From Branchiostoma floridae (Eukaryota > Chordata > Leptocardii > Amphioxiformes > Branchiostomatidae), in NCBI RefSeq assembly GCF_000003815.2, contig NC_049981.1, positions 27,377,757-27,441,756 of the forward strand: a stretch of DNA of 64,000 nucleotides, given 5' to 3'. Positions 3,601 through 53,135 of this stretch are shown one piece after another. Position 1 is the stretch's first letter. The number at the start of each line of letters is the position of its first letter. The position numbers were made by a program, and so were the translations under genes. The notes under the pieces were generated by a model. It had not been told where the DNA came from. It saw only the letters and a list, made by a program, of their open reading frames with translations, and made no database searches.

Positions 3601-6600
3601 TTAATGTCTCACTGCGACGTTCTCGCAATTGCAGTTCTAACTCTACTCGTAAAGTTTGAGACATTCTATTAACCTGCAGGACACAAGTCACAACTCAGAG
3701 GACAGTTGGAACTCATCCACCCAGCATTGTTATCACATTCGCCAATACTCGCCCAGTACGGACAGTGTTCGCTCAAGTCGCTGCAATCTGGACTGGCTGG
3801 CGTCGTGGATTTCGCTGCAAGACAAGATAAAACAAGTCTTTTAAACGAAGATCTTAAAAGTCTTTTAAAAATGTTAATAGTCTTGACAAACTTCAATTTA
3901 TAAAGCAAAAAACTTTAGTAATAATACATGTTTGACAAAGATCTATTTCATAGCCGGGAGCACAATTACAATTGTACCTGTTGGAGCCGTCAATAGAAGT
4001 GCCCTCAATTTGAAATATTACAGAAGCACAGTAGTCCCTGTCTGCATTAACATATTGTGTGTCCGAGCTAAAATGCTTCAAAGAAAATTGGAAAACCTTT
4101 GTCTGAAATGTTTTGGATCTCAATATATCGTTAGTACTGTATTATATAACGTCGATTTCAAAGTAGTTGAAGTCTATTGGGGCTAACAGACCATTGCAAG
4201 AAACTATGGTGTATCTTTGCGTTTTCCATTAAAGATGTAATAAAGATGACAGCTCAGAAAAGCAAAAACATGAACAAGAATAGAACTTAGAGTTACCTGG
4301 ACAGAAGAGAGTTACCTATAACTTAGAGTTACCTAAGACGGCTACTACAGCGACATTTTTTTATTAGGAGTTAAAGATGGCTCATTAAATGGCACATCAA
4401 TACCATTAATAGTATGTCTATCATCCCAATGTTTTTACGCAAATTTAAAAGCTTTCATGAAAACTTTTCAATACATTGATTATTTGATTGGACATGGCAT
4501 ATGCATGATGTATCTTTGCCTTTTGCATTGATAATGTAATAAATCAAAGATGACAGCTTAGAAATACAAATACATGAACAAGAATAGAAGTTTGAGTTAC
4601 CTGGACAGAAAACTCCCGAGTCGCACTCTTGTGTCTCCTCAGTATCTCCATCACACTCCGCCCCGCCGTGCTCTGGTGCCGGATTGGTGCAGCTTCGGTC
4701 CCGAGTCTGACTACCGACTCCACACGTCACGCTGCAGTCAGACCATGCGCTCCAGTCAGACCAGCCGCCATCAACTACATGGAAAACAGAGAAAAGGTAG
4801 TCTGAAACAAACTAAAAATACAGGCTTTTAAGACGGCTACTACAGCAACAATTCTGATTTTTCTTATTAGGAGTTAAAGAGGTCTCATTAAATGACACAG
4901 GAAGGCTAATAATAATATGTCTATCATCTCAATGTTGTTATGCAGATTTAAAACCTTTCATGAACACTATTCAATACATTGATTATTTGATTCGAAATGG
5001 CATGAGCCTTATGTATCTTTGCCTTTTCCTTTCATAATGTCTTAAATCAAAGATGACAGCTTAGAAATACAAATACATGAATAAGAATAGAAGTTAGAGT
5101 TACCTGGACAGAAAACTCCCGAGTCGCACTCTTGTGTCTCCTCAGTATCTCCATCACACTCCGCCCCGCCGTGCTCTGGTGCCGGATTGGTGCAGCTTCG
5201 GTCCCGAGTCTGACTACCGACTCCACACGTCACGCTGCAGTCAGACCATGCGCTCCAGTCAGACCAGCCGCCATCAACTACATGGAAAACAGAGAAAAGG
5301 TAGTCTGAAACAAACTAAAAATACAGGTTTTTAAGACGGCTACTACAGCGACAATTCTGATTTTTCTTATTGGGAGTTTAAGAGGACTCATTAAATGGCA
5401 CATGAATGCTATTAAGGATATGTCTATCATCTCAATGTTTCTACGCAGCTTTAAAAGCTTTCATGAATACTTTTCAATACATTGATGATTTGATTCGAAA
5501 TGGCATGTGCCTTGTGTATCTTTGCCTTTTGCATTGATAAAGTAATAAATCAAAGATGACAGCTTAGAAATACAAATACATGAACAAGAATAGAAGTTAG
5601 AGTTACCTGGACAGAAAACTCCCGAGTCGCACTCTTGTGTCTCCTCAGTATCTCCATCACACTCCGCCCCGCCGTGCTCTGGTGCCGGATTGGTGCAGCT
5701 TCGGTCCCGAGTCTGACTACCGACTCCACACGTCACGCTGCAGTCAGACCATGCGCTCCAGTCAGACCAGCCGCCATCAACTACATGGAAAACAGAGAAA
5801 AGGTAGTCTGAAACAAACTAAAAATACAGGTTTTTAAGACGGCTACTACAGCAACAATTCTGATTTTTCTTATTAGGAGTTAAAGAGGTCTCATTAAATG
5901 ACACAGGAAGGCTAATAATAATGTCTATCATCTCAATGTTGTTATGCAGATTTAAAACCTTTCATGAAAACTATTCAATACATTGATTATTTGATTCGAA
6001 ATGGCATGTGCCTTGTGTATCTTTGCCTTTTCCTTTCATAATGTCATAAATCAAAGATGACAGCTTAGAAATACAAATACATGAATAAGAATAGAAGTTA
6101 GAGTTACCTGGACAGAAAACTCCCGAGTCGCACTCTTGTGTCTCCTCAGTATCTCCATCACACTCCTCCCCGCCGTGCTCTGGTGCCGGATTGGTGCAGC
6201 TTCGGTCCCGAGTCTGACTACCGACTCCACACGTCACGCTGCAGTCAGACCATGCGCTCCAGTCAGACCAGCCGCCATCAACTACATGGAAAACAGAGAA
6301 AAGGTAGTCTGAAACAAACTAAAAATACAGGTTTTTAAGACGGCTACTACAGCGACAATTCTGATTTTTCTTATTGGGAGTTTAAGAGGACTCATTAAAT
6401 GGCACATGAATGCTATTAAGGATATGTCTATCATCTCAATGTTTCTACGCAGCTTTAAAAGCTTTCATGAATACTTTTCAATACATTGATGATTTGATTC
6501 GAAATGGCATGTGCCTTGTGTATCTTTGCCTTTTGCATTGATAATGTAATAAATCAAAGATGACAGCTTAGAAATACAAATACATGAACAAGAATAGAAG

Positions 6601-9600
6601 TTAGAGTTACCTGGACAGAAAACTCCCGAGTCGCACTCTTGTGTCTCCTCAGTATCTCCATCACACTCCGCCCCGCCGTGCTCTGGTGCCGGATTGGTGC
6701 AGCTTCGGTCCCGAGTCTGACTACCGACTCCACACGTCACGCTGCAGTCAGACCATGCGCTCCAGTCAGACCAGCCGCCATCAACTACATGGAAAACAGA
6801 GAAAAGGTAGTCTGAAACAAACTAAAAATACAGGTTTTTAAGACGGCTACTACAGCGACAATTCTGATTTTTCTTATTGGGAGTTAAAGAGGTCTCATTA
6901 AATGACACAGGAAGGCTAATAATAATATGTCTATCATCTCAATGTTGTTATGCAGATTTAAAACTTTTCATGAACACTATTCAATACATTGATTATTTGA
7001 TTCGAAATGGCATGAGCCTTATGTATCTTTGCCTTTTCCTTTCATAATGTCTTAAATCAAAGATGACAGCTTAGAAATACAAATACATGAACAAGAATAG
7101 AAGTTAGAGTTACCTGGACAGAAAACTCCCGAGTCGCACTCTTGTGTCTCCTCAGTATCTCCATCACACTCCGCCCCGCCGTGCTCTGGTGCCGGATTGG
7201 TGCAGCTTCGGTCCCGAGTCTGCCTACCGACTCCACACGTCACGCTGCAGTCAGACCATGCGCTCCAGTCAGACCAGCCGCCATCAACTACATGGAAAAC
7301 AGAGAAAAGGTAGTCTGAAACAAACTAAAAATACAGGTTTTAAGACGGCTACTACAGCAACAATTCTGATTTCTCTTATTAGGAGTTAAAGAGGTCTCAT
7401 TAAATGACACAGGAAGGCTAATAATAATGTCTATCATCTCAATGTTGTTATGCAGATTTAAAACCTTTCATGAAAACTATTCAATACATTGATTATTTGA
7501 TTCGAAATGGCATGTGCCTTGTGTATCTTTGCCTTTTCCTTTCATAATGTCATAAATCAAAGATGACAGCTTAGAAATACAAATACATGAATAAGAATAG
7601 AAGTTAGAGTTACCTGGACAGAAAACTCCCGAGTCGCACTCTTGTGTCTCCTCAGTATCTCCATCACACTCCGCCCCGCCGTGCTCTGGTGCCGGATTGG
7701 TGCAGCTTCGGTCCCGAGTCTGACTACCGACTCCACACGTCACGCTGCAGTCAGACCATGCACTCCAGTCAGACCAGCCGCCATCAACTACATGGAAAAC
7801 AGAGAAAAGGTAGTCTGAAACAAACTAAAAATACAGGTTTTTAAGACGGCTACTACAGCGACAATTCTGATTTTTCTTATTGGGAGTTAAAGAGGTCTCA
7901 TTAAATGACACAGGAAGGCTAATAATAATATGTCTATCATCTCAATGTTGTTATGCAGATTTAAAACCTTTCATGAACACTATTCAATACATTGATTATT
8001 TGATTCGAAATGGCATGAGCCTTATGTATCTTTGCCTTTTCCTTTCATAATGTCTTAAATCAAAGATGACAGCTTAGAAATACAAATACATGAACAAGAA
8101 TAGAAGTTAGAGTTACCTGGACAGAAAACTCCCGAGTCGCACTCTTGTGTCTCCTCAGTATCTCCATCACAATCCGCCCCGCCGTGCTCTGGTGCCGGAT
8201 TGGTGCAGCTTCGGTCCCGAGTCTGACTACCGACTCCACACGTCACGCTGCAGTCAGACCATGCGCTCCAGTCAGACCAGCCGCCATCAACTACATGGAA
8301 AACAGAGAAAAGGTAGTCTGAAACAAACTAAAAATACAGGTTTTTAAGACGGCTACTACAGTGACAATTCTGATTTTTCTTATTGGGAGTTTAAGAGGAC
8401 TTATTAAATGGCACATGAATGCTATTAAGGATATGTCTATCATCTCAATGTTTCTACGCAGCTTTAAAAGCTTTCATGAAACCTTTTCAATACATTGATG
8501 ATTTGATTCGAAATGGCATGTGCCTTGTGTATCTTTGCCTTTTGCATTGATAAAGTAATAAATCAAAGATGACAGCTTAGAAATACAAATACATGAACAA
8601 GAATAGAAGTTTGAGTTACCTGGACAGAAAACTCCCGAGTCGCACTCTTGTGTCTCCTCAGTATCTCCATCACACTCCGCCCCGCCGTGCTCTGGTGCCG
8701 GATTGGTGCAGCTTCGGTCCCGAGTCTGCCTACCGACTCCACACGTCACGCTGCAGTCAGACCATGCGCTCCAGTCAGACCAGCCGCCATCAACTACATG
8801 GAAAAAAGAGAAAAGGTTGTTTAGAACAAACTTATGATAATTACATACTGATCTTCAAGACGACTCATATTTTGTTACCAAGCACTTAACCAGCGATTAC
8901 TGAAATGGCTCATGAATGCGATCAATAGTATGTCTTAGTATGGTTAATGCAGATTACCACTGCTACAGGGACAATTCGGTCTTAAAGAGGGCTAACTTAA
9001 CTGGCACATGGATGTCTATGATTATTGTGTTTACATTTAGAGCATCCACCATCAGCTACACGGGAAACACAATGAAGTTAATCTGGAATAAAATAGAAAT
9101 ACGACTACTATATTGATGACGCTGATTTTCGTAAATAGATACTTACAATTGCTGACTCTCCTGGTCATGAATAGTATCAATAGTATGTCTATGATTTTAC
9201 TTTTTGCCATTCATATTTGAGAGGTTTAATTTGATTAACAATGTTCAATAGAAAGATCATTTGATGCCAAATAGTATATGTATTGACATATTGTGTGTCT
9301 TTGCGACCTTCTTCATGAGTTAATTAAATAGTTTGAAGATGCTACCTCAAAACGTCAGTTGCTTGTGCAGCATTATGACTTACATGTTCCTGTTTCACAG
9401 TGATGTCCTTCATTAGCCTCCATAGCAGGCTCTCTGGGGACTTTTTGGGGGCTCACATTACTCTTTTGCTGGCCATTTCTATTTGTACTCGGTCGCTGAT
9501 TGCTGGCCTTGTCTGATTACTGGCCTCTTGGACGCCCCAGAGAGCCTGCTATGGACGCCACTTCTTCATAACCAGGACGACAATGTCATCTGTAGCTGTT

Positions 9601-12600
9601 GACGCTATCAATGCAAGTTCCACCATTTTGACAGATCACAGAAGAACAATCGTCAATTTCCTTATGAATTGGGATTTTAGTTAGTGTGCTTTGAAGAAAT
9701 TCAGTCTACAAGTTTTTGAAATGCCCTGCATGTTTATTTATTATTATCAAAGTGTAGTTCTCGATTAGAGAGGCATTGCTTTTTGTTGCGTTGTTTTATG
9801 ACAGCTTAATCAACGTTGTGGGACCGCGTGGCACGATCGGGAGCGTGTTGGTCTCAGGCCCGAGATGTCCCGGGTTCAAATCCGCTTGCCGTGTCACCGA
9901 TCTTGTGCCCTTGGAAAAGGCACTTTACACGACTTTCCTCACCTAACTCAGGTGTAAATGAGTACATAGCTGCGGCTAGTGACAGTGACAGGCCTTTGTT
10001 GTGGTGACAGGCCATAGGGGCATGTTCGGGCATGACGCACCCGCCATGACACAAGAGTCAGGGGTAGGACGAACCCCTTGCATCCTTGGTCGGAAGTCCT
10101 CCTAGGAGATGGAAACTCCAAATAATAAACCTGCATCTGCTGGGGCCGTCTTACGTGGCAAAACAGTTCTGTCCCTGTAGGACTTAGTGCGCCAGTAGAC
10201 GAGAGGGTGAAGAAGGAAGTGCACACCCCTCGCTCCTTCACCTTAAAAAGTCACGTGCAGGCCAGGCAGGCTGGTCGTCTAATCAACCTGTCTGCCTACC
10301 ATTGATCTTCGGATACGAAGTAACAGCCATCATCAAATCAACGTTGAAGCAGAAAGAGCAACACCGTAAACGCGTAAGATGAAACTCATGTTTTTGCATA
10401 ATAAATAAAATGACAAATCTTTTATGTATATCAAGTTTGCCCAAGTTATGATAGGAATACTTTATCTATTTATAATAGGAGTACGTACCTATTTCACAAT
10501 GATCTCCGAAATAGCCAGGAGCACAATCACAGCTGTAAGTGTCGACGCCGTCAATACAAGTTCCGCCATTTTCACATATCACAGAAGAACAGTCGTCGAT
10601 GTCTGAAATTGATATATTGGGATGGCAGTTAGTGTTCTTCCTAGAAACGCAAAGTATGCAAAGTCATGGCAGTATTCATATCAGCAATGAGAAAAACGCA
10701 TAACTCTTTTGCAGGTAGAATAAATGTGATGTCGACCTAAATCTGAGGGCAGCAACACCTCGTCAACCGGGCTGCTTTCCTGGAATTTTATGTCAACAAA
10801 CAGATGCCAGTGGGCCGTTGAAAAGCAGTTCCCCTGTTTCAATACTGTGTTGTTCTATATCTATAGGGTAGTCAGCTGTTGTGGAGGAAATCATTCCATA
10901 ATATCTATATGTCACTTTTACTTGAACTCTAGTTGTTATTATCTTAGTTCTGCAATAATGCTAAATTCATGATAACCGAAGTGACATGACGAACGATACA
11001 CACCGCAAACAAGATCAACACCCATCCATTGTCCATCTTCACATTCCTTAAAGTCCTGTCCACTGACGTTGACATAGCCTGGATTGCATTGGTAGTAGCA
11101 GATTGTTCCCGCGCTGTAGGGAAACCTTGTTGACGTGCAGGTCTTATCATCGCTCGTATTTGGTACGTCTGGCGGGGAGCGTGTACAGGGGCGTCCCGGG
11201 CCTGAAAAGGCAAACAATGTCAGGACATGTATCAGTCTCAATCGTAGGCCTCTATTGTCGTATAATTTTGGTGCCATGCACCCAGTTTCGAGCCCTGATG
11301 TGATATGGGTACTTACGTAATTCACAATGGTCTCCTCTATAACCATGAGTACATCTACAGCTGTAGCTGTTGACGCCGTCAATGCAAATCCCACCATTCT
11401 GACAAATACCAGGAGAACAGTCGTCAATGTCTGTATTGAGAAATTGGTATGGCAGTTAGTGTGCTTCCAACAAAACTAAACTGCAATATTGATTCAAATG
11501 CCATGCATCTTCCAATACAATGTTCTTTTATGAAGAACGTTATTGCACGGCAATTGTACATGTATTTACATCGATAACTGTCGTGATTCACGTTCACGAT
11601 TTAATTTCTATAGTCTTATATAAATAGTGACATACTTAGAACATAGTTATATCAGAGAAAATACTCTGGCACATCTTTTATACAATGTTTTAATACAATT
11701 CCATGCACTTGTAATAGGTATACGTACTTGTTTCACAGTGATCTCCTTCAAAGCCAAGAGCACAATTGCAGATATATCTGAAGACATGGTCAATGCAAGT
11801 ACCGCCATTTTGACAGATGACAGAAGAACAGAGGTCGTTGCCTGTATCATATTAGAATGGCATTTAATGATCCTCTGATAAAATCAGACTACAATTGTAT
11901 CAAGTTCCATGCATATCAAAATTAGTTCAGCAGTCTATCAAATCTTTCTTAAGAAAGCTTTTATGATTCACCATCATGTAAACATGCCAGTTTCAGTGAA
12001 CGTTTGATTAACAGCAGTGAATGAGGCATGCTCATCTCAATGCAACAGAGAACTCCATGACAAATCGTTTACAAAGGTTATTACTTTTTCAATTGGGGCA
12101 CGTACTTGTTTCACAATGATCTCCTTCATAGCCAGGAGCACAATGACATCTGTAGCTGTTGACTCCATCAATGCAAATTCCACCATTTTGACAGATCACA
12201 GAAGAGCAGTCGTCGATGTCTGCATGAACATATTCAGAAGCCAGTTAGCGTGCTTCCAAGAAAATCGAAGCACATGTATTGTCCAATGTACGTTTTCACG
12301 ATTACAAAGCTATTGTGCTGCATTGCTAAGATACAATAACAGAAATAGCTGAAGTTACAATAGCGATATCGTTATGACATTTCGTGTTTTTCATAAACAA
12401 ATTGTCAGTCAGTCCATTCAGACTATGGCATAGATAACACAATCACAAATCTGTTATTTATTTTAGTTCATGCTCTTACAATAACAGTACGTACTTGTCT
12501 GACAATGATCTCCTTCATAGCCAGAAGCGCAATCACATCTGTAGCTGTTGACGTCATCAATGCAAGTTCCGCCATTTTGACATATCCCAGAATAACAGTC

Positions 12601-33220: not shown

Positions 33221-35132
33221 TTAGTTGAGCTCGGCATGAGCGGACATGACATGGCGACGACATTCAAACTTTCCATCAACATTTCTGCTACCAAGAAACT
33301 GATGAGATTGTTCCTTTTCTCGTAATTGTGCGCTACTATTCTCCGGTTAGTCTAATACGAGCGATCGCTGTTGTTGTTTATATCCGGGGTATTCGGTGTT
33401 TGGTGCCTACCAGGACGTCAGTAGATTGGATTAAAAATTGATATTTAAATCAGCAGATCAAATTACCGGTTAATATGTAAATCAATCGTTTGCCAAACAC
33501 CTGCTTTTTGCCTACCACTGCGTCACCGTGACATCATCGCGATCGCTCGTATACTTCATGATTTTTTAGCCTAGGCATATAAATTGTTACTTTCCTCATT
33601 TGTTCGATGCTTTGTACGTCACCCCGTAAAGTGAATTTGCATATAAATGCTGAGAAATAGTTAACTACGTAAACCATATTTCTACTCTTTGAGTCGTGGC
33701 TCCACAGGTCGATGGAAAAATAGTAGAAATTGGCAAAAAGAAACCACGATAACACTCCTAGGCCAATTACTAGTAACTCTTACTGGGCTTTTATTCCTAA
33801 CTGGGCCAAACCCTATTCGGCCAGGCGGGAGTCTGAGATAGAGTGGTACTTCCACCCCACCCCCACCCCCCACCCCCGATCAAAAGGTTCATATATATTC
33901 AACATGTTTGCAACCTTTGTGATTCTGGCCGGCAGCCTGCTGACCATGCATTGTTATATGAAAGTCAAGTAGGCACTTGCACTTGAATGATTTAATAGCA
34001 AATCCTCAAGATAAGGGGCAAATCATACCGTACCCACAAGTTCCTAACTCATTATTCCTATCTATTTAGGCTTGGATAGAAAGTCCGATAAAAACGCCAA
34101 AAAAGAAACGTCAAAAAAGAGCCGGAGCCTAACCTCTACTAGGAAAGTAAGTTAAGTAACCCACTTGCCCTAATCATCACCCCCCCCCCCATCAGCGATG
34201 CCCAAGTGGTGTTGATAGAGGGTCTGTAAGAAGAAGATGATAAAGAAGACGAAGATTTTCATACCCTCTGTCGTCTCTATATCTGCCCTTTTATGGCGTA
34301 GTATCTTACTTGTATTCACTTTAGTTCTGCCATCGCCTCCCCCCTATATAGTGAATAGAACGATCCCCTGACCCTCAGAAGTTTGTCTAGCAAATGTTTG
34401 TCGTCTGAACGTAACATCAATCACTTCTGGCTCCCGTGTCTGATTCCTACGAGTGTCTACTCTTTGTAAGCATGTACTTTAATACACTGGTGGCAGCGGG
34501 GTTCGGACCACAAAGTACCGAAGTAACGGGTTCCTTTTTCACCACTCGGTGTTCAGTATCTTCCGCACTAGATCTCCAGTGCCGAAGTTACAATAGCACT
34601 GGGTGTCCATTTTCTATCTTAGTTCCAGCCGCCATTACGACGTCCAAGAGGACTTTGAGTTCGAGGACGACAGGTCACCACGCCCCCCAGCCCCTACCTG
34701 CCACTGCTACGTTTGCTGGCCTTCCAGCCGGCCACAAACATTGAGGTACTGTATGGACACCAATTTTGCCCACACGATGTTGACTGACTACTTTCTCACC
34801 TGACAGCATGGTCATAACTTAAGAACCATTACGGACCATTACATGCAAGTGGTATTTGCAGAATAGAATTTGTTGGAATGGCGTTTGATAGACTTTGACA
34901 TAACGTGTTAGCATTTGAGGGTAACCATTCATGCATGTTCTGAAGTTTTGATTCCTGTGATAATGACACCTTGTTTTCGTCAACAGTTCGTAGCATATTC
35001 ACTGCCATATGCCGCTGGAACATGTCGTCAACCCTGTTGAATGGTTCTACTTCGCACTGCGGATAGGTGTCGCTACAACATCTTGAGTGGTCCCTTGAAA
35101 CTGTGACATTTGACCGTTTTCAAACGATCTTC

Positions 35133-36377
35133 ATGATGCAAGGCTGTACTATCTTCCGGCGCCCTGTGTGCGATGTGCTTATCCTGTACATCGGGATGTT
35201 CTGCGTCGTTCTGCCCATTCTCTGCCACAGACTACACTATTCCATCTACTACAGCCAAACCCTTCACATGGGAAAGACTGATTCCTTCGCTTACGCAATG
35301 AAGGTAAACGATGATCGCAAGAACCTGGCGCAAATATCACTCCTCTCGCGATCATCTGCGACGTCTCACCTGATGCCAAATGCAGACTCCAAAGTAAAGC
35401 TAGCTATTGGGTTTGTTTCGGTCAGCAGACAAGTCAAAATGCGGGACGGAAGTCTCTACAATCCAGGATATCTTCTGCAGTCTGTCGAAGCGATCCTTCG
35501 AGAAAATCCATCCAACGAAACTCGACTTGTCGTTTGTAACGTAGACTCTGACCCGTCCTCCAATGTTGATGCTGCCTTTCTGTCGTCATTCGTTCCCGTT
35601 CACTCCAGATATCTGGAACGAAATGTAGTTTCACCGTTAGGGTTGAAGGAAAGGTTCAAGAAAGAGAGAGAAGACTACATTTACTGTTTGGAAGAAGCCC
35701 TATCTTTCGACCCGGAGTTTGTACTTATCTTAGAAGACGATGCTCTCGCGATTCCTGGTGTATTAGATGTCATTTACCACGTTATTCAGACAAAAATTGA
35801 CAAGAAGTACAGAGGTTTTGAGCTGACAGAAAACAACTACACCAAAACATTCTTCAAGCTTTTTACTCCAACATATATGCAAAATGACTTTCATACTACT
35901 AAACCAAAACGTATCTTTGTTCATATCTATGAACTCATTGGAATAGGCATCATAGGAGGAACAATTATAACTTTTGTCCATACGCTATTTTTCAACAAAG
36001 GACTAAAAAGATCCTACGCCACTATCTATGGACTCTTTGTGGCTGGTGTCGTCTGTAGTATACTTGCAGCCTTAGCAGTTTCTAGAGTGCATCTTATGGA
36101 GTGGAGGAGAATTTCTAAACACTTCTATGTGATGTTTCAGGCTGACAACTGTTGCACGCCTGCAATTATGTACCGGAAAGACACTGCAGTAGACTTCTTG
36201 AGATATCTGCAGACAAGGAGGCATGACGATTCGCCTATAGACGGAGACATGAATGGTCTTGTAGTATCCCACGGTTACAGAAGATTTGCCGTAGAGCCAA
36301 ACCTGTTTTCACATATCGGGATGTTCTCGTCTATACAAAAGAAGATTAACAGAGGCTTTCTCCATGGCTTTGTGTAA
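35133..36377 (+). CDS. PGAP4: PGAP4/TMEM246-like Golgi glycosyltransferase, paralogue 1 (intronless)
   Basis: This 414-residue protein has the unusual PGAP4 layout. An N-terminal membrane segment (about 13-31) leads into a glycosyltransferase domain that is split by two membrane helices (about 266-286 and 298-317) and resumes to the C-terminus. The acidic EDD at about 201-203 sits where the family has its metal/UDP-sugar site (VLILEDDALAIPG). C-terminal marks are NCCTPAIMY and VEPNLFSHIGM. In mammals PGAP4 adds GalNAc to GPI anchors in the Golgi; that role is inferred here. The ATG at 35133 is the first in frame; the frame extends upstream only with non-ATG codons. The length is close to vertebrate PGAP4 (about 400 residues). 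A tandem partner lies 2.3 kb downstream. Confidence 0.85.
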   Translation: MMQGCTIFRRPVCDVLILYIGMFCVVLPILCHRLHYSIYYSQTLHMGKTDSFAYAMKVNDDRKNLAQISLLSRSSATSHLMPNADSKVKLAIGFVSVSRQVKMRDGSLYNPGYLLQSVEAILRENPSNETRLVVCNVDSDPSSNVDAAFLSSFVPVHSRYLERNVVSPLGLKERFKKEREDYIYCLEEALSFDPEFVLILEDDALAIPGVLDVIYHVIQTKIDKKYRGFELTENNYTKTFFKLFTPTYMQNDFHTTKPKRIFVHIYELIGIGIIGGTIITFVHTLFFNKGLKRSYATIYGLFVAGVVCSILAALAVSRVHLMEWRRISKHFYVMFQADNCCTPAIMYRKDTAVDFLRYLQTRRHDDSPIDGDMNGLVVSHGYRRFAVEPNLFSHIGMFSSIQKKINRGFLHGFV

Positions 36378-36970: not shown

Positions 36971-38708
36971 TTAAAGGCCAGGAAGGAGGTTTTGGAGCTG
37001 AAGCTATCAGAAAGAGTACTGCCTTAGTGCACTCTAAATGACAGCATCTGAAAGAAGCACACAATATTTCGTACCACCTTAACAGGTACTCTGCTGAGCA
37101 GCTTGTAAAACAATTTCTAGCTGTTAAGGAAGGAAGGAAAGAAGGAAGACCAGAAGCTACTGCCCCGCAGTCCAACTTTCGCACAGCCTCATTGCTCTAT
37201 ATGGGTACCGACTGGCTGTTTCTTCAATGAGAATATTCAATGGGAATTAACTCTGTTGAATGCTTTAAAGGCATCGAGAAAACATACAAAAACTGGGGAG
37301 TCGCGACATCTAAAATAAGAGATAATCTCTTTGAGAGCAAAGATGCACATACACACATGTAACGTTATCTGTCCCATGCACGGTGCTGTTTAAAATCTAC
37401 AGATGACCAAGAAGAACAGTTACAAACAGTTTGAACGGGCACTGGAGATGGCAATAGGCCGGTGTTTCTTCTTAATTGAGATAATTAGATTCAAATTTTT
37501 ATTATCGGAACAATTTAACAGGATTAGGGAGCTTGAAGCAACATGGCTTGTTTTGATTATTCCATTTAGAGAGAAAGTGGTATTGGACCGGTCCATTTGA
37601 CTTGAGATGAAGCTGGTCTTGCACGGGGGCAATAAGTTGATTGTTGGTGTCTTTTTTTCTCAATTTTGGACAGTCCATTGCATTGGAAGGGGTGAATTAT
37701 TTTAGCTGCTTATAAACGGTGCATTTCCTTTTAAAATCGCTAGGTAGCAATTTTTGTTTATGCGGTCAAAGGGCACGGGTTACCTGTCCGACAGTGTCAG
37801 TGTATTTGCACGGCCCAGCTGGGGACAATCGACTCACGTATCAGAGTTATCCTTCGTAAGTTTTGATTCTTGTACCTTTCTGTTTGATTGACGTTTATTT
37901 CTCATGTAAGCTACCAAGTCGCCAGTATCAGACATATGATAATGGCGAAAATGTATTGGACACCTGTTGGCGACACTGCCCCCCTCCCTCATACATGTTT
38001 TCATTGTCGAAACGCTCCAGATTGTCATGGCCATAGACCCAGACGACAGTCGGAATAAACTGTTTGCACTGTAATTCTATACAGTCATTCGTTTAAACGT
38101 ACGAAAACAATTAAATATTTCGCTGAGACCGTTGACTCGCCTTAGCTCGTCATGCGTGACTAAATAGCCAAACAAAGTAGATTGGAGCCGACTCGCTGAA
38201 GGCTCACTGTAGCCGAACACAACTAGTATTGACCAAGAGAGCCGCTAAAGACTTGTTTTTAGCACTCAATTCAAATCTCAGTATAAGGCCTCCTTCATCC
38301 GATATATCAATACATGTACAATTTCCAGAGAAAAAATGGGAAGGTTAGTCTTATTGGGGAAAAATGTAACGTTATAGGGTGTGAAGTTTTTCCTCTCGAG
38401 ATCGTGACGGGTCGTATGCTGAAACTGCCTTAACAAAACTGAAGAACAAGTGGACACCATTTTTTATAGATTACAGATACTGTAGGTTAATCTCGTCAGA
38501 AAGATGACAATTTTTATAGTTGTAGTTGAAAATTGTGAAAACGTGCTAATGCACTTGTTTACACATATGACAAAGATAGCATAAAAATGATCATGCCAGT
38601 GTTTTTTAGCATTGAAGCCAGCATGCACTGTTGCTAAAAGGATTGGCAGCCAGGCTTTAGTGCCTATAGACACTAGTCGCCAGACTAACTGGATCTGTCT
38701 CCACTTAC
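36971..38708. other. Interval between the two PGAP4-like genes, no gene supported
   Basis: Contains a GGAA-rich run (about 37128-37150) and otherwise nothing recognised. It must hold the promoter of the second PGAP4-like gene, but no TATA or clear initiator was singled out. Confidence 0.45.
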
Positions 38709-40073
38709 ATGTGGCGTTTTTCTAACACCCCGGTACAGATCCTTGCACGGAGAGACTCCTTTCATGGACTCAGCACCGGCATTCATCAGATAGAAGCAGA
38801 ATCGGCAAATATCAAAGTTGAAGAAATGCCACATACGAAGAAGCCCTGTTGCGGTGTGAGTTCTAGTGGACGTCATGTGTGCGGTCTGTTGCTACGCAAC
38901 TGGACGGCCATTGGTCTCTATATCTCCGTGTTCTGCGTGATCCTTCCGATCTGTTGTCACAAGTGGTATTTTTCAGTTTACTATAACCAGAAACTCCACC
39001 TAGGTGGCGCTTCTCCTAGTGTTTATGCTAGGAAGGTTAACGATGAATGTATAGTACGAGCGGTGTCGTTCTTCTCACAAAAGCGTGATGCACAATTACC
39101 AAGAACAACTAACGATGTGAAGATGGTGATTGGATTTGTTACGATAAAGAGGAAGGGAGAAATAAAAGATGGCGGGGACTATAAACCAAGATACCTGCTC
39201 CAAACTGTGGCGGGACTTCTTCAAGAAAGGTTGCCGGACACAATACATGTTCTAATCTGCAACGTGGCAACCAACCCTTCTTCACATACCGATGCGGCCT
39301 TCTTATCAAAATATGTGACTGTTGTGTCGAGATACGGAAAGTATGGGGCTGCCAAGCCACCGGGACATCTTCAAGACAAAGAAAGAGAAGACTACATCTT
39401 CTGTCTTAATCAGAGTTTATCTTATAACCCCAGATATGTCCTTCTTTTAGAAGATGATGCACTGGTTGTACCAGGAGCAGTAGATGTCTTAGTCTATGTT
39501 GTGGATAAGATCGAAGACAGACGGTATAGGTTTGAAGCGTCAAAAACTTTAGCAAAACTGTACAGTCCTTTATCGTTACAAAGAGATTTCTACACAGACA
39601 AGCCCAGTCGCATTGTAAGAAACTTGTTAGAATTACTAAGCATAGGTCTATTTGGAGGCTCGCTCCTCCGGATACTGTATACCTTACTATGTGAGAGAAA
39701 CAGAGAGAACCACCGACTTTTGGATGGGTACTTTGTGGCAAGTTTGATCTGCTGTGTTTTGGCAGCGCTGGCCATTTCAAGACCACATCTGTTAGAGCTC
39801 AGAAGAATCTCAAAACAACTTTACATGGTTCTAGAAGCCAACGACTGTTGCACACAGGCCATTCTGTATCACAGAGAAGTTGCTAAAAGTATCGTATCGC
39901 AGTTTGAAAAGGGCTTTGTGCCTGACTGGTATCCCATAGACGCAGGTTTAGATTACCTAGCGGAGAAGCTTGGTCTCGCACCGGTGTGCGTGGAACCAAA
40001 CCTGTTCACACATATCGGGATGTACTCGGCTCTGCACGAGGGGGAGAACGTCTATCTTAAAGACTTTGCTTGA
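38709..40073 (+). CDS. PGAP4: PGAP4/TMEM246-like Golgi glycosyltransferase, paralogue 2 (intronless)
   Basis: This 454-residue protein is clearly paralogous to the gene at 35133. It has an N-terminal membrane segment (about 66-83), the acidic site VLLLEDDALVVPG (EDD at about 248-250), two inserted membrane helices (about 308-327 and 340-358), and the C-terminal marks NDCCTQAILY and VEPNLFTHIGM. The first ATG gives a tail about 40 residues longer than paralogue 1. An internal ATG at 38826 (purine at -3) would give 415 residues, matching the partner's length, and may be the true start. AATAAA at about 40297 fits as its polyadenylation signal. The expected role is GPI-anchor GalNAc side-chain addition in the Golgi, inferred from the family. 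Confidence 0.85.
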   Translation: MWRFSNTPVQILARRDSFHGLSTGIHQIEAESANIKVEEMPHTKKPCCGVSSSGRHVCGLLLRNWTAIGLYISVFCVILPICCHKWYFSVYYNQKLHLGGASPSVYARKVNDECIVRAVSFFSQKRDAQLPRTTNDVKMVIGFVTIKRKGEIKDGGDYKPRYLLQTVAGLLQERLPDTIHVLICNVATNPSSHTDAAFLSKYVTVVSRYGKYGAAKPPGHLQDKEREDYIFCLNQSLSYNPRYVLLLEDDALVVPGAVDVLVYVVDKIEDRRYRFEASKTLAKLYSPLSLQRDFYTDKPSRIVRNLLELLSIGLFGGSLLRILYTLLCERNRENHRLLDGYFVASLICCVLAALAISRPHLLELRRISKQLYMVLEANDCCTQAILYHREVAKSIVSQFEKGFVPDWYPIDAGLDYLAEKLGLAPVCVEPNLFTHIGMYSALHEGENVYLKDFA

Positions 40074-41530: not shown

Positions 41531-41773
41531 GCTGTATCTATTCACACACAAAATTGACACGAGCATTTGAGCAGCATAAATTATTATGCATAGATACTTA
41601 TGTAAGACCCAAAACTCCGTTTCTCCGTTTGCATGTATCTGTCATACCATAGATAGCCTATCTGGTGCTTTTGTCATTGCTGGGCTCCAGACAAGACAGC
41701 TGTTCACCTTAAACTATCCGGATTACTAGTATTCGCTCAGTGGCAGCCTGTGCCGCTCAACGTGACATCGTTC

Positions 41774-42605
41774 CTAAACTGACGCTTCTATAGCCACTTG
41801 TTTGCACTTCCCGACGCGGTACTTCCCCTCCAGCGGATGGCACTCGAAGCCGCCGTGGCAGGGGCACAGGAAGCTGCTCCGCGGGCGCAAGAGGAGAGGG
41901 AAGGTTGGAGAGTTGACCTTGCAGATTTGACCCTCCTTTCGGAGGCTCTTGCACACGCGGATGGGCATCTTGACGTTCCACTGCGCGCAGCAAGAGGTGT
42001 CGTCTCCGTCAGCGTCAATGCAATCTGCGTCAGTTTGGCAAAACTGCGAAACAAGGGTGGAAGACGTTTTACAACTAGCACTAAGCGTTCGGAGCGCCCT
42101 GATTTTTACAGGGATATTAACTTTTTTCTTGCACTAAGGCCCATTGAGGCCTTGTTGTCTCAACAAACCAGCATCTGGCTACATTGTACTTTGATTGCAG
42201 ACAATGCTGCCTAGCAGGCAATTATACAGGCATTGTCTTTTATATTCTAGGTGACAATTGGGCCCAGGTCCTATTCCCTCTTACTTTCAGTGACTATTTC
42301 AACAAGATTTGCAGATGTTACAGTAACGATTGATTAGAATTGAAATATCTATCTAACTCCGCAATGCTACACGGTGTCGACAAAGCACCAAGACTGATAT
42401 CTAGAACATCCAAAACAAGAGCAATTCTTTCCGTGCCCAATCTGTACAGATATTCCAATATATTCCAATTCTAACAAGGATGGCTAAATCCATAGATGCA
42501 TCTGGAAGAATTCACAAAGATGTTGCTTACCCCTGTGATGGGCATCATGCCAGACGCAAAGAGGCAGCCGAATGAGGCGATGAGGATGATCTGCAGCAGG
42601 CTCAT
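41774..42605 (-). CDS. PROK: Prokineticin-like secreted hormone, two exons, 114 residues
   Basis: Exon 1 (42605-42531, 25 codons) encodes a signal peptide starting MSLLQIILIASFGCLFA and ends MMPITG. Exon 2 (42043-41774) encodes FCQTDADC, SCCAQW, RVCKSLRKEGQIC, FLCPCHGGFEC, GKYRVGKC. The junction is phase 0 (GGG then GTAAGC; TTTCGCAG then TTT). The mature part has ten Cys in the prokineticin (colipase-fold) spacing, including the C-C pair, the E-G-x-x-C turn and the C-P-C. The C-terminal Y-R-V-G-K-C parallels Y-R-C-S in vertebrates. I-T-G then x-C lines up with the A-V-I-T-G-A-C start of vertebrate prokineticins, but A-V is replaced. ATG context ACCACCATG is a perfect Kozak. The length is close to human PROK1 (105). 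Vertebrate members signal through G-protein receptors; that role is inferred here. Confidence 0.88.
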
Positions 42606-42700
42606 GGTGGTAGAGATAGAGTCTTCTGGTCTGTCGGATCGTCGGAGTGGATGTAGGTTCGCTGGTCGGCTTCCAATGTAAAAAGTCTCCCCTGGTTCGG

Positions 42701-42710
42701 GCTCTTTTAT
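42701..42710 (-). promoter_or_regulatory. TATA-like box of the prokineticin gene
   Basis: GGGATAAAAGAGC on the minus strand lies about 100 bp upstream of the ATG. A start site about 30 bp downstream would give a 5' leader of roughly 70 bases. No other TATA-like sequence is close. Confidence 0.45.
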
Positions 42711-42759
42711 CCCCAAAATCTCCGCATCAGAAAAAAACATGCTTGCTATTCAAAATTTG

Positions 42760-45700
42760 CCCGATTGCCAAGTAGGCTACTTAACACTTAGCAGCCCTCA
42801 ATTGCCACTCCCTTTCAAAAAAAATTCCGAGGACCCTCAAACGTTCATAACGTGTTAAGGTACCTCAAAAAACGGGTACTGAAGAGTGCTTCATTGAAAT
42901 GGAATGTCCATAATATCCATACATTATAGATGATATGATTGCCTTATTATTACTTTTGATGACTTAAGATGAATTTCCAGAACATTTTGTGTAATTAACT
43001 GTCTCCTCTACGATCACGAAAGAAAATAGCTCTGTAAAGGGACCATCGATTCCATCCCGATTTCATCACGTCTACAGACAAAAAACTACTCTCCAACTAA
43101 AATCACAGAACCCATACATTATACAATAAATAGGAACCTTCTCGTCTTCCACTGTCTCACTGTCAAAAGAAGTCGAATCCAATATGTTAGAATATGGAGT
43201 CAATGATAAAACTAGATAGGTCACATGGTATGATGTTCACCATTGTTTATTACGTGTTGTTTTAATCAGTTGTAGTAACAATGGTTCATGGATTGATTTA
43301 TATTTACATGTGGTGACAATATCACAACTCATAAAACAGCTATGAATTCAAACAAATAAATTTGATTATTGCTGGATTATCGGAATAACATTGAGCAACA
43401 TTGAATTATAGACTCTGGGCTAATTAATGTGCCGTAAACGTACGATTATCAGATTTACTAGTATCGTTGTGAAACAAAGACGCATTGAAATATATAAATG
43501 TCTTACGTATGTGAAACTGCTTAATGCACACTGATTTAAGTTCTTTGAGATTAATGAAGACTGGTGTCACATCAGGACATGATGCAATGTAGAGGATATG
43601 TCTTGTTCCTTTTCTTTAGAAACCCGATAATGACAACTTTAATCGCTAGTTTTGGATTCTCGTGAGAGTAGCGGGACGTAATACTATAATGTATATTTTC
43701 TTCTGTAAATTGTTTGGTTCATCAATTTGTTCTTGCCAAGGGTTCTCAAAACGTCCAACATATCTTTTGTGTAGCTAAGAATACAGTATGTGTGTACACG
43801 TTCTGAAATAAAACCTTCCATTTCCCCTTCGGTATCTATGCAATAAATGTAAAGCTTGCACGTTAAACACATGCGCACTCTATAATACGTGCGGGAGCAC
43901 ACATTACACAGAAAGTGCTTGAGACCTATAGTACTTCTGATGTATCCATCCGCAATATTTTTAGTCAAAACCACTTGCAAAACAACACGTCAGAATTCCT
44001 GACGCCTGGTTTAATCTGTATGTATTAATTGAAGTATGAACCTCGGCGTAGAGAGGGCCATCACTCGGAAAGACATCCATGCAGAGATTCCATTTCTACA
44101 AAACATAGTGCTACAGAGATCCTTGAAGAGTAGCTGTGTGACCACTTGGCAATATAGCTTGTTTGAAGATCTCTACTTGTGAACTATCCTGAGGACGGCA
44201 CGCGGACGGCAGTGTGCGGAGCTCGTTACGTAAGAGTAGGTGTGGAGACTGATGCAGACGTAATTCTGCAATAGATAGAGTTGAGTTTTCGTAAATTTTG
44301 AAAATGTAAAAGTTTCCGGTGTTCACGCTTAGCAGTGCAACTGGTTTCATAGCATAGTATGGCTGGTTTATTGAGAACATTCAACGCCATATAGCAGACA
44401 TAATACGCCTGAATTGAGATGTGACTTACAACATTAAAAACGGGCACTGAGATTCATATTAGGGTCATCTTTAGCGTCGGCTATAACTCGTCTTGCTGCC
44501 ATATAGCTATATGTAGTCGTATGTGCAGTGTTATCAGCGCCTATCAGACAATTTGCATTGACATCCAGCGAGGATGACAATGATGTTGGAGCGACCGCTA
44601 CTCGTTTATAACACCAGAAATGATCGCCATATACGTTAGGTTCGCACAAAATCCAGTTTTTACATCCTGCGCTCATTGTACTTTTCAATATGTATTGTAT
44701 GGATGGTATTTAAATGAGCTTTACAGATACTTGGCAGTAGTTGGAATTCTTGCCCCACAGGTTGTCACAAAATTTCAATCAAATACGACGACAAAGTACA
44801 TAAAGCCTGATCAATTTATGTCCAAGGTAGTGACCTAGCCTCTGCTCGGGGAATAGCTCATCAGCTCCAGAAATCGAGAGCCTGTGTTGTAATATTAGTT
44901 GCCGCCAGATGTTCTAATGGGCTAAACCACACTACGTTTAAGATGGGGGCGTCGTAATTTAACATAACATTGAAGTATGGACACGAGACTGTGCCCAAAT
45001 TTACCATGCATCATCGGGAGCTCACTATCTGCATGCCGACATATTAAACAAATCAATCAACTTGATCTTGAGTTAAAGCTGCGAGCACATATATGCACAA
45101 CCATCCGAAGTACCCTACTGGAGGTAAGCCTCATTCACGGAACATGTGACATTTGATTTATGTGTTAGCTTTTACATTTACACCATGCATGGGCAGATTA
45201 TATATGTTTGGTGCCACTAGGAAATACTGTCAAAAGTTGTGTAATTGACCTGTCTTCTCTATCAGACAAATAAAATTACAAAGTGCTTTGTGACATTTAT
45301 CAACGTCTCTGGGCAATCGTTGAAAGTTGTCATCCATCTGAAATACTGCCGAAGGTTTGGCGTATGTTATTTCATAAATACACTTCTCAGAATATTCAAA
45401 TCACCGTATGTCTCTAAGAATCACAGTGGTGACGAATTATTCTTCAAACAAGTACGAATTTGGTATCGACGCAAACTGAACCTTGATCAGAGTGAGTAAT
45501 GGCAGCGTAGCCTCCAGCTGTCGTGCCGATTATTGTGTACCATTAGTACCACAACACAATGGGTGACCAGGGATACATTTGATAAAATGCGCCACGGAGA
45601 CATCAAACAGGCATTGAAATTATGTGTAAACGGCGAATAAATTACCACCACCCTGTTGATCTTTCGGCACTTAATAAACAGAAGGTTACAAATATAGGAT

Positions 45701-48688: not shown

Positions 48689-51600
48689 TTAGTCTGACTT
48701 AGGTTCCACACTGAGCCCCTCTTTCTCCTGCATCTCTGTGAACATGTCCCTGAGTGTCTGGGCGAGCTCCGGTTTGCGCATGTTGTTGAGGTGCCTGGAC
48801 AGCCGCTGTACTCTCTCAGCGTTCTTACAGAAGGGTGTGCAGGACTGGGTCTTCCATTTCAGCAAAACCTGCAACCATGCACAATAGTTAATATTGATCA
48901 TTAGAACATGATTCGTCACTACAACATGCATGGATGGTCAGTCTTGACCTGGTGTACATCATTCAGCACTCACATACATGATGCATACATCATAGTACAC
49001 ATGCACATACACGCGCGCGCAAACACACACACAAACACAATGAAATACACATACGCATGTGCACAAAAACACACAAGCACATTAAAACATATGCATACAA
49101 ATACGCACGCATACACAGATGAAACGCGCACATTCAGACACACGTACAAACAAGCATACAAACGCACACATAGACACACACACGTATACACACACATGGC
49201 CTTATGTGGCATACATATACATGTGCTATACATTGAGAACCTGATAAATCTGTTCCTTGGCCTTCTTGGGATGTCTCTTCTCGATGCCGTTGAACATGGT
49301 GTCTGTGAGGCCCAGCTCGCAGGCCAGCAGCATGGGGAAGGGCACGGTGATCTGGTTCCTCCTGATGCCGTCCACGAACTGTCGCAGGAGCTGCAGGAAA
49401 CGGGCCTCTGCAAACAGAAGGATTGTCACAATGTCAGTGTCACGTTTGGTTAGATGTTGTTCATTTGTTGATACAGTGAGAAAGGACGCCTGTCAATTGT
49501 GAGCTTTCAAGCTGCGTAGTGGGATCATTGGAAATGGTTTAAGACTTTCGCGGACTACCATGCTCTTCTGTGTTATAAAGTGTAAATTGCCCTACCCCCC
49601 CCCCCCTCGAATTAAATCAGCATTAATGTGTGACACCTTGGGAATGCATTAGAAACTTCACATCATCCAATATTGACACCTATATGAACTACGGTACAAT
49701 TTATGAGCTTTGGACAGAGAGAATGTGTTCATAGTCATTGTTGTTACAAACATGAACCCTGTATACTAAGGACACGCGTTAAGTACCTTCTAGCTTCCGC
49801 TCTTTGGCCTTCCTCTTCCTGTCCTTGCAGAGCCAGCTTCTGATTGATCGAAGGCCACCGACGCACACGGATAATGGCGGGAACTCTAGCGGGTTACTCT
49901 GCAATGACAAGTCTTTCAGACGACCGTAACAGAAATCATCGAAGTTTTCTGGCAGACGCGAGATTCGGTTGTCCTGGAGCTGTAGGAGTTTTAATCCTGA
50001 CAGGACACATAGTTCGTTTGGCAAGCACCTGATATCGTTACCGGGTAGTTTGAGCTCCCTCAAGGAACCCAAGTTGCGTACGGTCACAGGAAGTGACGTA
50101 ACTCCGGAATGTTCAATGAACAGTTTCTTCAAGTTTGTCAGGACCCGAATTTCTTCAGGAACCCCACCAATCCTTTTCCTTTGCCCGCCGAAGTACAGCT
50201 CTTCAAGAGATTTCAACTTGCAGATTTCTACCGGGAAATGTTCGAAATCATTTTGCGTGAGGGCCAGAACTCTCAAATGTTTCAGGTCCGCGATCTCCTC
50301 TGGCACTTCTCGTAGCTTGTTCTCGTCCATGGACAAAATTTCTAGGTTGAGCAATTCGCACACCTGTGCCGGAAATATCTCAAACTGGTTTCGAGAAAGG
50401 TAAAGTTCTCTCACTCGCACGTTTCCGAGATCTTCTGGGAGCCGCTGTAGGTGGTTCCCGGCTAAATCTAAGATCTCAACAAAGATCAAACTGCACAGGT
50501 TCAAGTTCAGATCCATGAGAGCGTTCTTGCAAAGCCACAACTCTCTGAGAGACGCGAGGTCGCCGACTTCGTCTGGAATGAGACTCAAATGATTTCCGCA
50601 AATGCTCAGCACTTCAAGACACAGTAGTGTGCACACTTGAATCGGTAGGTAGTCCAGGTCGTTCTTGTTCAGAACAAGGCACTTCATACGGGATAACTGG
50701 TCCATGTCCGCTGGGAGACAGCTGATGTGATTCTCCTCAGCTTCTAACAGTTCGAGATTAGATAGGGAGCACACTTCTGGTGGAATCTCCTCAAACCCAT
50801 TTTCACTGATGATGAGTTCCTTGAGGACCCGTAGCTCTGAGATATCCTTGGGCAAGTCTGTCAGACTGTTTCCGACTAAACTCAAGTGGATCAGGTTTGT
50901 TAACATACAGACGCCGATTGGCACGTGCGTTAACTTAAGACTGTTCAGCTCTAACGCCTTTAATGACGTCAGATAACGGACTTCTTGAGGCAGCTTGCTC
51001 TTCTTGATAGCTACGTCTTCAATAGACACTTCTTGTATGTCATTTTCACTGATGTCTAAGGTGTCGACTTCGAGTTCTATCAATTCCATAGGGAAGGTTT
51101 TAAAATCATTGCACTTCAGTGTGATGACTTCAAGATTCTGCAATTCTGTCAATGCCTCTGGTAAAGTAGCAATAAGGTTTTTGTCCAGGCGGAGCTTTTG
51201 TAACTGCCCTAATCTATTGACGTCTTCCGGTAAACGCTTCATGCGGTTCCCATTCATCTCTAAAGTTGTCAAGCTAGTTAGTCCGTACGTTTGCTCCGGG
51301 AAAGTTTTAAATCTGTTCTTGTTCAACATCAAAGCTGCCAACTTCTTTAGCACGACAACATCATCTGGAAGATTGGTTAAACAGTTGTCTGACATTTCAA
51401 TCACTTCTAAGTTTACCATGGAGGTTATTTGTAGGGGAAAGGTCATGAGTCCGAGTCCGTTCAGCCTCAGCACACGTAGCTTCCTGAGCTGTACGATCTC
51501 AGCGGGGAGTTGTGACATATCGTTATCGCTAACATCTAGAACCTGTAGACGCTCCATTAAACATATACAGAAAGGAAATTTGCCAAGCCTATTTTGTTGA

Positions 51601-52247
51601 AGAAACAGGTGCCTCAGGCTTTTCAATCTGCGACAAGAATCAGGCAGAGAGATCAATTTGTTGTGGTTTAGATGGAATTCTCTCAAGTTGTTTAAGTCCC
51701 CTATCTCGGATGGCAAGGTTTCAAGTTTGTTGTGGCTTAGGTTTAGTCTGAGCAAGTTCGAGAGCGTGCATACTTCAATTGTCAAGTCATGAAGTTCGAC
51801 ACGTTCCAACTGCAACTCTTCCAAATTCTTCAACTTTGTAAACTTAGCGGGAAGCTTTGATGTGGCGTCACAAAGTTTGGGGTTGTCCGAAAGCCTAAGT
51901 TTTCTCAGTCCCTTTAGATAGCATACATGGACGGGAAACCCCAGCAGCTTGTTTTGTGCAATAGAAAGTACCTTAAGGTTTTTCAGCAAGCGTACGTCTT
52001 GTGGGACGCTCACGATTGCGTTGTTGTCTACGCTCAGTTCCTCTACATCGCGAAGACTGTAGACCTCTTGGGGTATGGCGTGTAAGCCTCTGTTTTGGAG
52101 ATGTAGGCAGAGGGTCTTCTGCTTTGATTTGAATGTTAAAGCCGAGAGTGAGACTCCTGATTTGGGTAATAAGGAAAGCAGCTGGTCTAGTTTGCTTGTG
52201 GCGGCAGAAGACGACCCCACGTTGAGCGGAACCGTACTGGTGGCCAT
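48689..52247 (-). CDS. Leucine-rich-repeat protein with C-terminal death domain (LRRD1/PIDD type)
   Basis: There are three exons: 52247-49787, 49407-49241 and 48868-48689. Junctions are phase 1 (AAG then GTACTT; TTTGCAG then AG) and phase 0 (CAG then GTTCTC; GTTGCAG then GTT). The 935-residue product starts at ATAATGGCC. After a Ser-rich leader come about thirty LRRs of 23 residues with the L-x-x-L-P-x-x-I/V consensus. A basic spacer (RKRKAKERK) then leads to a death domain across exons 2 and 3: LLACELGLTDTMFNGIEKR, AKEQIYQVLLKW, RLSRHLNNMRKPELAQTLRD. The size and order match LRRD1 and resemble PIDD1, without the ZU5 or UPA domains of PIDD1. Death domains recruit partners by homotypic contact, so a cytoplasmic scaffold in apoptosis or NF-kB signalling is likely by family. 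Confidence 0.9.
49000..49200. repeat. CA-rich microsatellite in intron 2 of the LRR-death-domain gene
   Basis: Irregular ACACAC/ATACAC/GCACAC sequence between exons 2 and 3. Long frames read through it are artefacts. Confidence 0.85.
49408..49786 (-). other. Intron 1 of the LRR-death-domain gene
   Basis: About 380 bp with a C-run near 49596-49607. No gene on the other strand. Confidence 0.7.
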
Positions 52248-52329
52248 TATTGTTATGTTGTGGCTTCTTTCTATGGCAAGCCCTGACCCTGAAAGAAATG
52301 CAACGGTACGGTAAGTACGGATTACCACT

Positions 52330-53135
52330 ATTTATAGCACACAGTATAGGTTTCTACTTCACACTACTGCACTCAATTGGGTCAGGGCGGTTAGCTATTT
52401 CTTTGGTATTAACGACTATTGTTCCCTTCACGTTAAGAGCGTTGCAGAAGTATCAGGTTATCCACCGAGTGAAGTATATTACCCTGCACCTGTGAAATGG
52501 GTGCACCGTCTGTCGCCCTGTGGACATTTATCGGGCTAACAGGACCGCCCTCGACAAACTGTTTTTGTTGGACAACAAAGATAAGAGGGTGAGAAGCCGG
52601 GCCACCTGGTAAATAATAGTCTGTTAGCCGACCGAAGTCCGGCGAATTACGTCCCTCTTATTGTGTAGTGGCGCGTGGCGTGACTATGGGACCCGGCACG
52701 TACCTTCTCAGGACAGATACCGGCTGATTGTTGGTTTTATCAGTTTTTCTCAACAAGAAAAGCCATACATGGTGCCGAGTGTATAGCTCAGCATATTGAA
52801 GAATTACTCAGTTTACCGATTATTCAACTTTCAAACACTACATAGGAATTCTAGTGTCTAAAGAACATGAAAGGCTGATATTTCTATGGTTAAAAGTACT
52901 GCTTACTTGTAGGCAAGTATTATGATCATATGTTGACAGAAAAATATAAAAAAGAAGAGGTAGCTCTTGTGATAACTATCTATATTTTATGTGTAGCTAA
53001 ACTAGTAAGTACAATTATTGTGATAGGAAAAATGAGCCTGTCCAACATAACTACGGTCATTAATGGACCGGTATATAGTCTTATCATTAAAACTACAAAC
53101 ATGTTATGATACGCAGTAGCTCTGAGTGCTACCAA
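52330..53135. other. 5' flank of the LRR gene, no gene supported
   Basis: Should contain the promoter and perhaps a 5' non-coding exon of the minus-strand LRR gene. No TATA, tRNA or repeat recognised. Confidence 0.4.

Follow-up and report, generated by a model that had tools for sequence, protein, structure and literature searches.

The N-terminus of prokineticins has been regarded as untouchable, since vertebrates keep the sequence AVITGA there. Binding has been described as taking place at two sites, with the cysteine-rich core on the exterior of the receptor and the AVITGA tip in a pocket in the membrane (excerpts of PMC9776816), and adding a methionine before Ala1, or replacing Ala1 by methionine, turns vertebrate prokineticins into antagonists (excerpts of PMC2694302 and PMC9776816). 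A mutation table for human PROK2 assigns G32R (c.94) to exon 1 and C34Y (c.101) to exon 2 (partial text of PMC3624607); the boundary must therefore fall within the codons for G32, A33 and C34 of AVITGA-C. More distant relatives, the arthropod astakines and the ambulacrarian prokineticin-like proteins, have the same ten-cysteine domain as the product described here; astakines are without AVIT, and ambulacrarians and Xenoturbella have K/R-RFP-K/R at that site (excerpts of PMC11521371). Receptors of the PROKR type were already reported from Branchiostoma floridae in 2008, in a survey whose available portion gives twenty predicted genes (PMC2246102). Among the titles retrieved for prokineticin with amphioxus, Branchiostoma, cephalochordate or lancelet, none concerns an amphioxus ligand family, and a prior description or annotation is possible.

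We analysed a stretch of 64,000 nucleotides from B. floridae (the window), which contains a prokineticin-type gene. Its product resembles PROK1, PROK2, Bv8 and MIT1 in signal peptide, ten-cysteine pattern, ITG followed by x-C, and match to PF06607, and the gene resembles human PROK2 in having an intron after the glycine of the motif (the human boundary being bracketed). It differs from the vertebrate prokineticins in having MPITG for AVITG, with an N-terminus that is probably extended, from Bv8 in a tryptophan placed two residues earlier and a second cysteine loop of 9 instead of 4 residues, and from human PROK1 and PROK2, of three and four exons (partial text of PMC2694302), in having one coding intron versus two or three. 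Other loci of the genome share the ten-cysteine domain and, where it was found, a first exon ending in TG, but the first residue of their pentapeptide is A, L, I, F or M, and a third coding exon is present in at least two of them. We consider the predicted product a member of the prokineticin-domain family and of a clade of MPITG genes, one of at least 23 loci, which probably acts on part of about 22 PROKR-like receptors (probability roughly 0.78).

Gene structure and domain assignment

A sequence-only reading had proposed a two-exon gene with a signal-peptide-like start and ten cysteines, and the structure was confirmed (Table 1). The gene is a real one, and its product of 114 amino acids is a putatively secreted signalling protein. 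Exon 1 translates as MSLLQIILIASFGCLFASGMMPITG and ends with GGG|GTAAGC; the 3' end of the intron is TTTCGCAG, and exon 2 begins with FC and carries all ten cysteines of the domain. A second in-frame ATG is located upstream, at 42740; from agreement with consensus sequences we favour the start at 42605, because of the TATA-like and initiator-like sites and the CCACCATGA context. Third codon positions have a GC content of 0.77 in this gene, compared with 0.45-0.54 in four other window frames.

Table 1. Features of the prokineticin-type gene, in window coordinates.
Feature	Position	Strand	Remarks
Exon 1, coding part	42531..42605	-	signal peptide-like start and (M)MPITG; ATG in CCACCATGA context
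Intron, phase-0 GT-AG, 487 bases	42044..42530	-	at ITG|F junction
Exon 2	41774..42043	-	ten-Cys prokineticin domain; stop TAG
Candidate core promoter	42675..42711	-	GATAAAA at 42711, initiator-like TTACATT at 42681; match to consensus only, without chance estimate
Poly(A) signal AATAAA	41525..41530	-	about 240 bases 3' of stop

The ten cysteines follow the prokineticin order with near-identical spacing (5, 9, 0, 11, 9, 18, 1, 5 and 11 residues). With ranges set around the spacing of the product itself, this pattern turns up a single time when the window is read in all six frames, and never in 200,000 shuffled versions of exon 2. Against Pfam, the full product matches PF06607 (Prokineticin) with 29.2 bits (E 1.1e-6, cut-off 21.6) and no other family at E<=10, dickkopf and colipase, the rival folds named in the sequence-only reading, included. 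None of the nine controls (eight shuffles with cysteines fixed and one reversed sequence) matches any family, and the assignment to prokineticins proposed earlier is upheld. Without exon 1, exon 2 falls slightly short of the cut-off at 20.9 bits; the mature spliced form reaches 26.4, the unspliced read-through 23.0 and the unspliced locus in the genome search 22.6, so that splicing raises the score, though by no more than a few bits. In the PDB the product is closest in sequence to prokineticin Bv8 (2kra, E 0.00096), the following four matches being at chance level (E >=0.47). Single-sequence AlphaFold2 gave a poor model of exon 2 alone (mean pLDDT 54.5), and a fold search with it returned 29 matches, none at E<=0.001, with MIT1 ranked 18th at a chance-level E of 8.5; we therefore use fold evidence for none of our claims. 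The product probably contains five disulfides.

The window contains several other repeats and open frames. Eight full and one partial tandem copies of a unit of about 503 bases, 93-97% alike to the first copy, extend from 4458 to 8832; the first contains a thrombospondin type 1 domain (Pfam) and the others have similar frames. A 417-base unit is repeated 1.9 times at 1861-2657, with the copy at 2042-2245 matching the ShK domain, and an Ig exon (943-1332) and a Sushi exon (10942-11475) lie near this repeat. Neighbouring open frames at 35067-36374 and 38670-40070 are 41% identical to each other; the latter has a weak MGAT4_cons match below the cut-off and no PDB match at E<=0.1, and the layout of the pair presumably recalls that of PGAP4. 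A single frame at 49782-52331 encodes an 850-residue leucine-rich repeat protein, best matched in the PDB by leucine rich repeats and death domain containing 1, while a frame at 58574-59335 matches the CC2-LZ domain of NEMO. Scanning the window against Rfam and for tRNA genes gave no hits.

Prokineticin loci across the genome and the MPITG clade

The product was searched against the 513,431,437-base assembly (513 Mb), giving 22 places at E<=0.001, two of which are first exons, so 20 are domain loci. PF06607 found 23 places, 20 of them over the cut-off; 17 are among the 20 loci of the product search and six are new. Inspection of four of these six gave three family members, the fourth (L033, C10:15084465) being set aside because its sequence differs from that of the others and a TG exon 1 was not found with it. 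C199:343010 and C13:21267431, both below the Pfam cut-off, are likewise left out of the count, and three loci of the product search (C6:7.25, C2:13.22 and C4:13.063 Mb) are absent from the Pfam family list. The family comprises at least 23 prokineticin loci, both searches scoring best candidates only. With this number of loci, one of which (on C9) has a literal AVITG, the earlier suggestion that the window gene represents an invertebrate-chordate root of the PROK family is not supported.

The ten-cysteine domain is intact in one frame at 15 loci, L032 reads likewise, and two further loci need a third coding exon to complete it; the remaining loci are assembled in part, and some could be broken. 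All 15 aligned members match PF06607 at E<=1 (best 1.3e-10), and 17 exon 2 matches outside the MPITG clade have 33-42% identity to the window product. On C13 near 21.25 Mb (L016, 2813-4125), the predicted intron contains seven similar pieces of the beginning of a prokineticin exon 2, all of them upstream of the intact copy.

First exons were found for 18 of the 23 loci (all except L011, L017, L019, L025 and L032); that assigned to L022 is about 11.5 kb upstream, and L012 has one additional TG-type first exon outside the gene assignments. Their pentapeptides are MPITG and LVLTG, three times each, and, once each, AVITG, LVITG, IIITG, MVITG, MVVTG, MAITG, IVFTG, IVITG, ITVTG, LVVTG, FVVTG and LTVTG, making the first position M in six, L in six, I in four, and A and F in one each. 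T and G are constant in all 18, every exon ending in TG; this is partly built in, because the searches required TG before the donor or favoured I/V-T/S-G or TG in the ranking, although LVLTG and IVFTG ranked first without the I/V-T/S-G bonus. AG directly precedes the x-C codon at 19 of the 23 loci.

The non-canonical N-terminus remarked on earlier is a pentapeptide, MPITG, common to three genes. In a tree of 15 exon 2 rows, without outgroup, the window gene groups with its copies on C6 and C14 (support 97/94), this being the sole starred branch among 12 inner branches, nine of which are open; on these sequences we regard the three-gene clade as firm. Over 105 codons, excluding unalignable C-terminal ones, the window gene and the C6 copy differ by a dN of 0.029 and a dS of 0.197 (NG86), or 0.026 and 0.380 (YN00). 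Given this low dN/dS (about 0.15 by NG86), the coding sequence indicates that purifying selection keeps the frame relative to this nearest copy. When window positions 41586-44367 are compared with the C6 copy (L009), the three longest matching pieces take in intron and flank and are 69-83% alike, suggesting that the pair arose by duplication of DNA and not through an mRNA-derived copy.

The N-terminal tip and putative receptors

The N-terminal segment of the product is MPITGF, with ITG and its distance to the first cysteine kept; since this is not AVITGA, the gene is not placed in the vertebrate-type AVITGA subgroup. The sequence-only reading allowed either an altered receptor contact or removal of the methionines by processing. 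Scored with a weight matrix, the site of signal cleavage is uncertain and is predicted after Ala17 (5.2) or Gly19 (3.2), which would leave three residues or one in front of MPITG. Glycine, alanine and serine before the cleavage site suit signal peptidase. Outside the clade, 13 of 15 first exons have one of these before the pentapeptide (the exceptions being P and, in a QFVVTG paralogue, Q); the three MPITG genes have M, M and Y there, residues that the matrix rejects at -1.

We applied the same matrix to 15 of the 18 first exons found, three of the clade and 12 others. Cleavage one residue before MPITG is the first or second choice in all three clade genes, and cleavage three residues before it the first choice in two of them; among the other 12, the exact pentapeptide is the first choice in four and among the first two in seven, while the first choice leaves additional residues in eight. 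Because of the M, M or Y before the pentapeptide, the mature tip of the MPITG clade is probably extended, reading MMPITGF or SGMMPITGF in the window gene, although such an extension is perhaps not unique to the clade. Trp24 is called essential in reviews. When the product is aligned to Bv8, a valine occupies the equivalent spacing; the early tryptophan, third after CC, is present in 10 of 15 aligned rows, that of the window gene included, and therefore appears to be a trait of the lineage rather than a fault of the window gene.

A search for a receptor counterpart in this genome had also been suggested, and candidates were found in number. The query was a human receptor sequence of the PROKR type. 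Among the best 136 of 586 candidates, which were scored, there are 104 matches at E<=1e-10, of which 22 are PROKR-like first exons with 46-64% identity up to just past the DRY motif (query position 90). Of these 22, 20 start at query residue 1-3 and two at residue 26; near-full-length matches belong to other receptors, at 23-31% identity. Linkage of ligands and receptors was tested and not retained: two clusters of ligands have a receptor-like locus at most 0.4 Mb away, a proximity that is not unusual under random placement (P 0.14). They are on C4 near 13.06-13.41 Mb and on C13 near 18.17-18.42 Mb, with ligand loci 0.25-0.34 Mb from a PROKR-like first exon.

For the secretion, receptor pairing and effect of the window product, we infer the following. 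Signal cleavage would release the mature peptide, probably with at least one extra residue before MPITG. As in vertebrate prokineticins, its cysteine-rich core would bind a PROKR-type G-protein-coupled receptor from outside, with the free N-terminus entering the receptor pocket. Since the clade has the pentapeptide MPITG and probable extra residues, it probably acts on only some of the 22 or so PROKR-like receptors. The peptide should fail to activate vertebrate receptors, because a methionine before or at position 1 gives antagonists in vertebrates.

This effect of methionine raises the alternative that the MPITG clade, with Met at position 1 preceded by M, M or Y, acts as a natural antagonist, occupying PROKR-type receptors but not activating them and so dampening the remaining paralogues. 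We consider it unlikely: other paralogues begin with Met, Leu, Ile or Phe, which the receptors may tolerate, and extended tips may not be confined to the clade, given the eight of 12 other first exons with additional residues and the QFVVTG paralogue. An equally doubtful extension is that the at least 23 ligand loci and about 22 receptor loci expanded together, and that the clade turned into natural antagonists through the very pair of N-terminal changes later engineered by pharmacologists in vertebrate prokineticin.

Less probable still is an astakine-like use of the fold, as a blood-cell or defence factor independent of PROKR-type receptors. Non-vertebrate members are without AVITGA, and protostomes have no known related receptor according to excerpts of PMC8398477 and PMC8557429; however, PROKR-like loci are abundant in this genome, and the xxTG|x-C segment and the intron position are of the vertebrate kind. 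The first intron splits the motif after Gly5 in the window gene, fitting the interval AVITG|A bracketed for human PROK2 exons 1 and 2 (c.94-c.101).

A pseudogene or a member of another cysteine-rich family (of dickkopf, colipase or MIT-like atracotoxin type) is scarcely credible: exon 2 alone weakly matches MIT_LIKE_ACTX (E 0.17) and the 15 aligned members include weak extra matches at E<=1 to MIT-like atracotoxin (five, best 0.0017), Colipase_C (four, best 0.033), Dickkopf (two, best 0.0069) and Tachystatin A (one, 0.00048), but the full product matches Prokineticin only, the frame is intact, the intron is GT-AG and dN/dS is low.

Proposed matching of diversified tips and receptors

The reading we favour, on the sequences compared here, is that of diversified ligand tips matched to diversified receptors. 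The 18 first exons, constant only in T and G (in searches biased towards these residues), stand beside about 22 receptor-like loci and constitute a natural mutagenesis set, which bears on how the tip of a protein ligand switches its receptor. The amphioxus genes are also a candidate case of ligand-receptor co-expansion.
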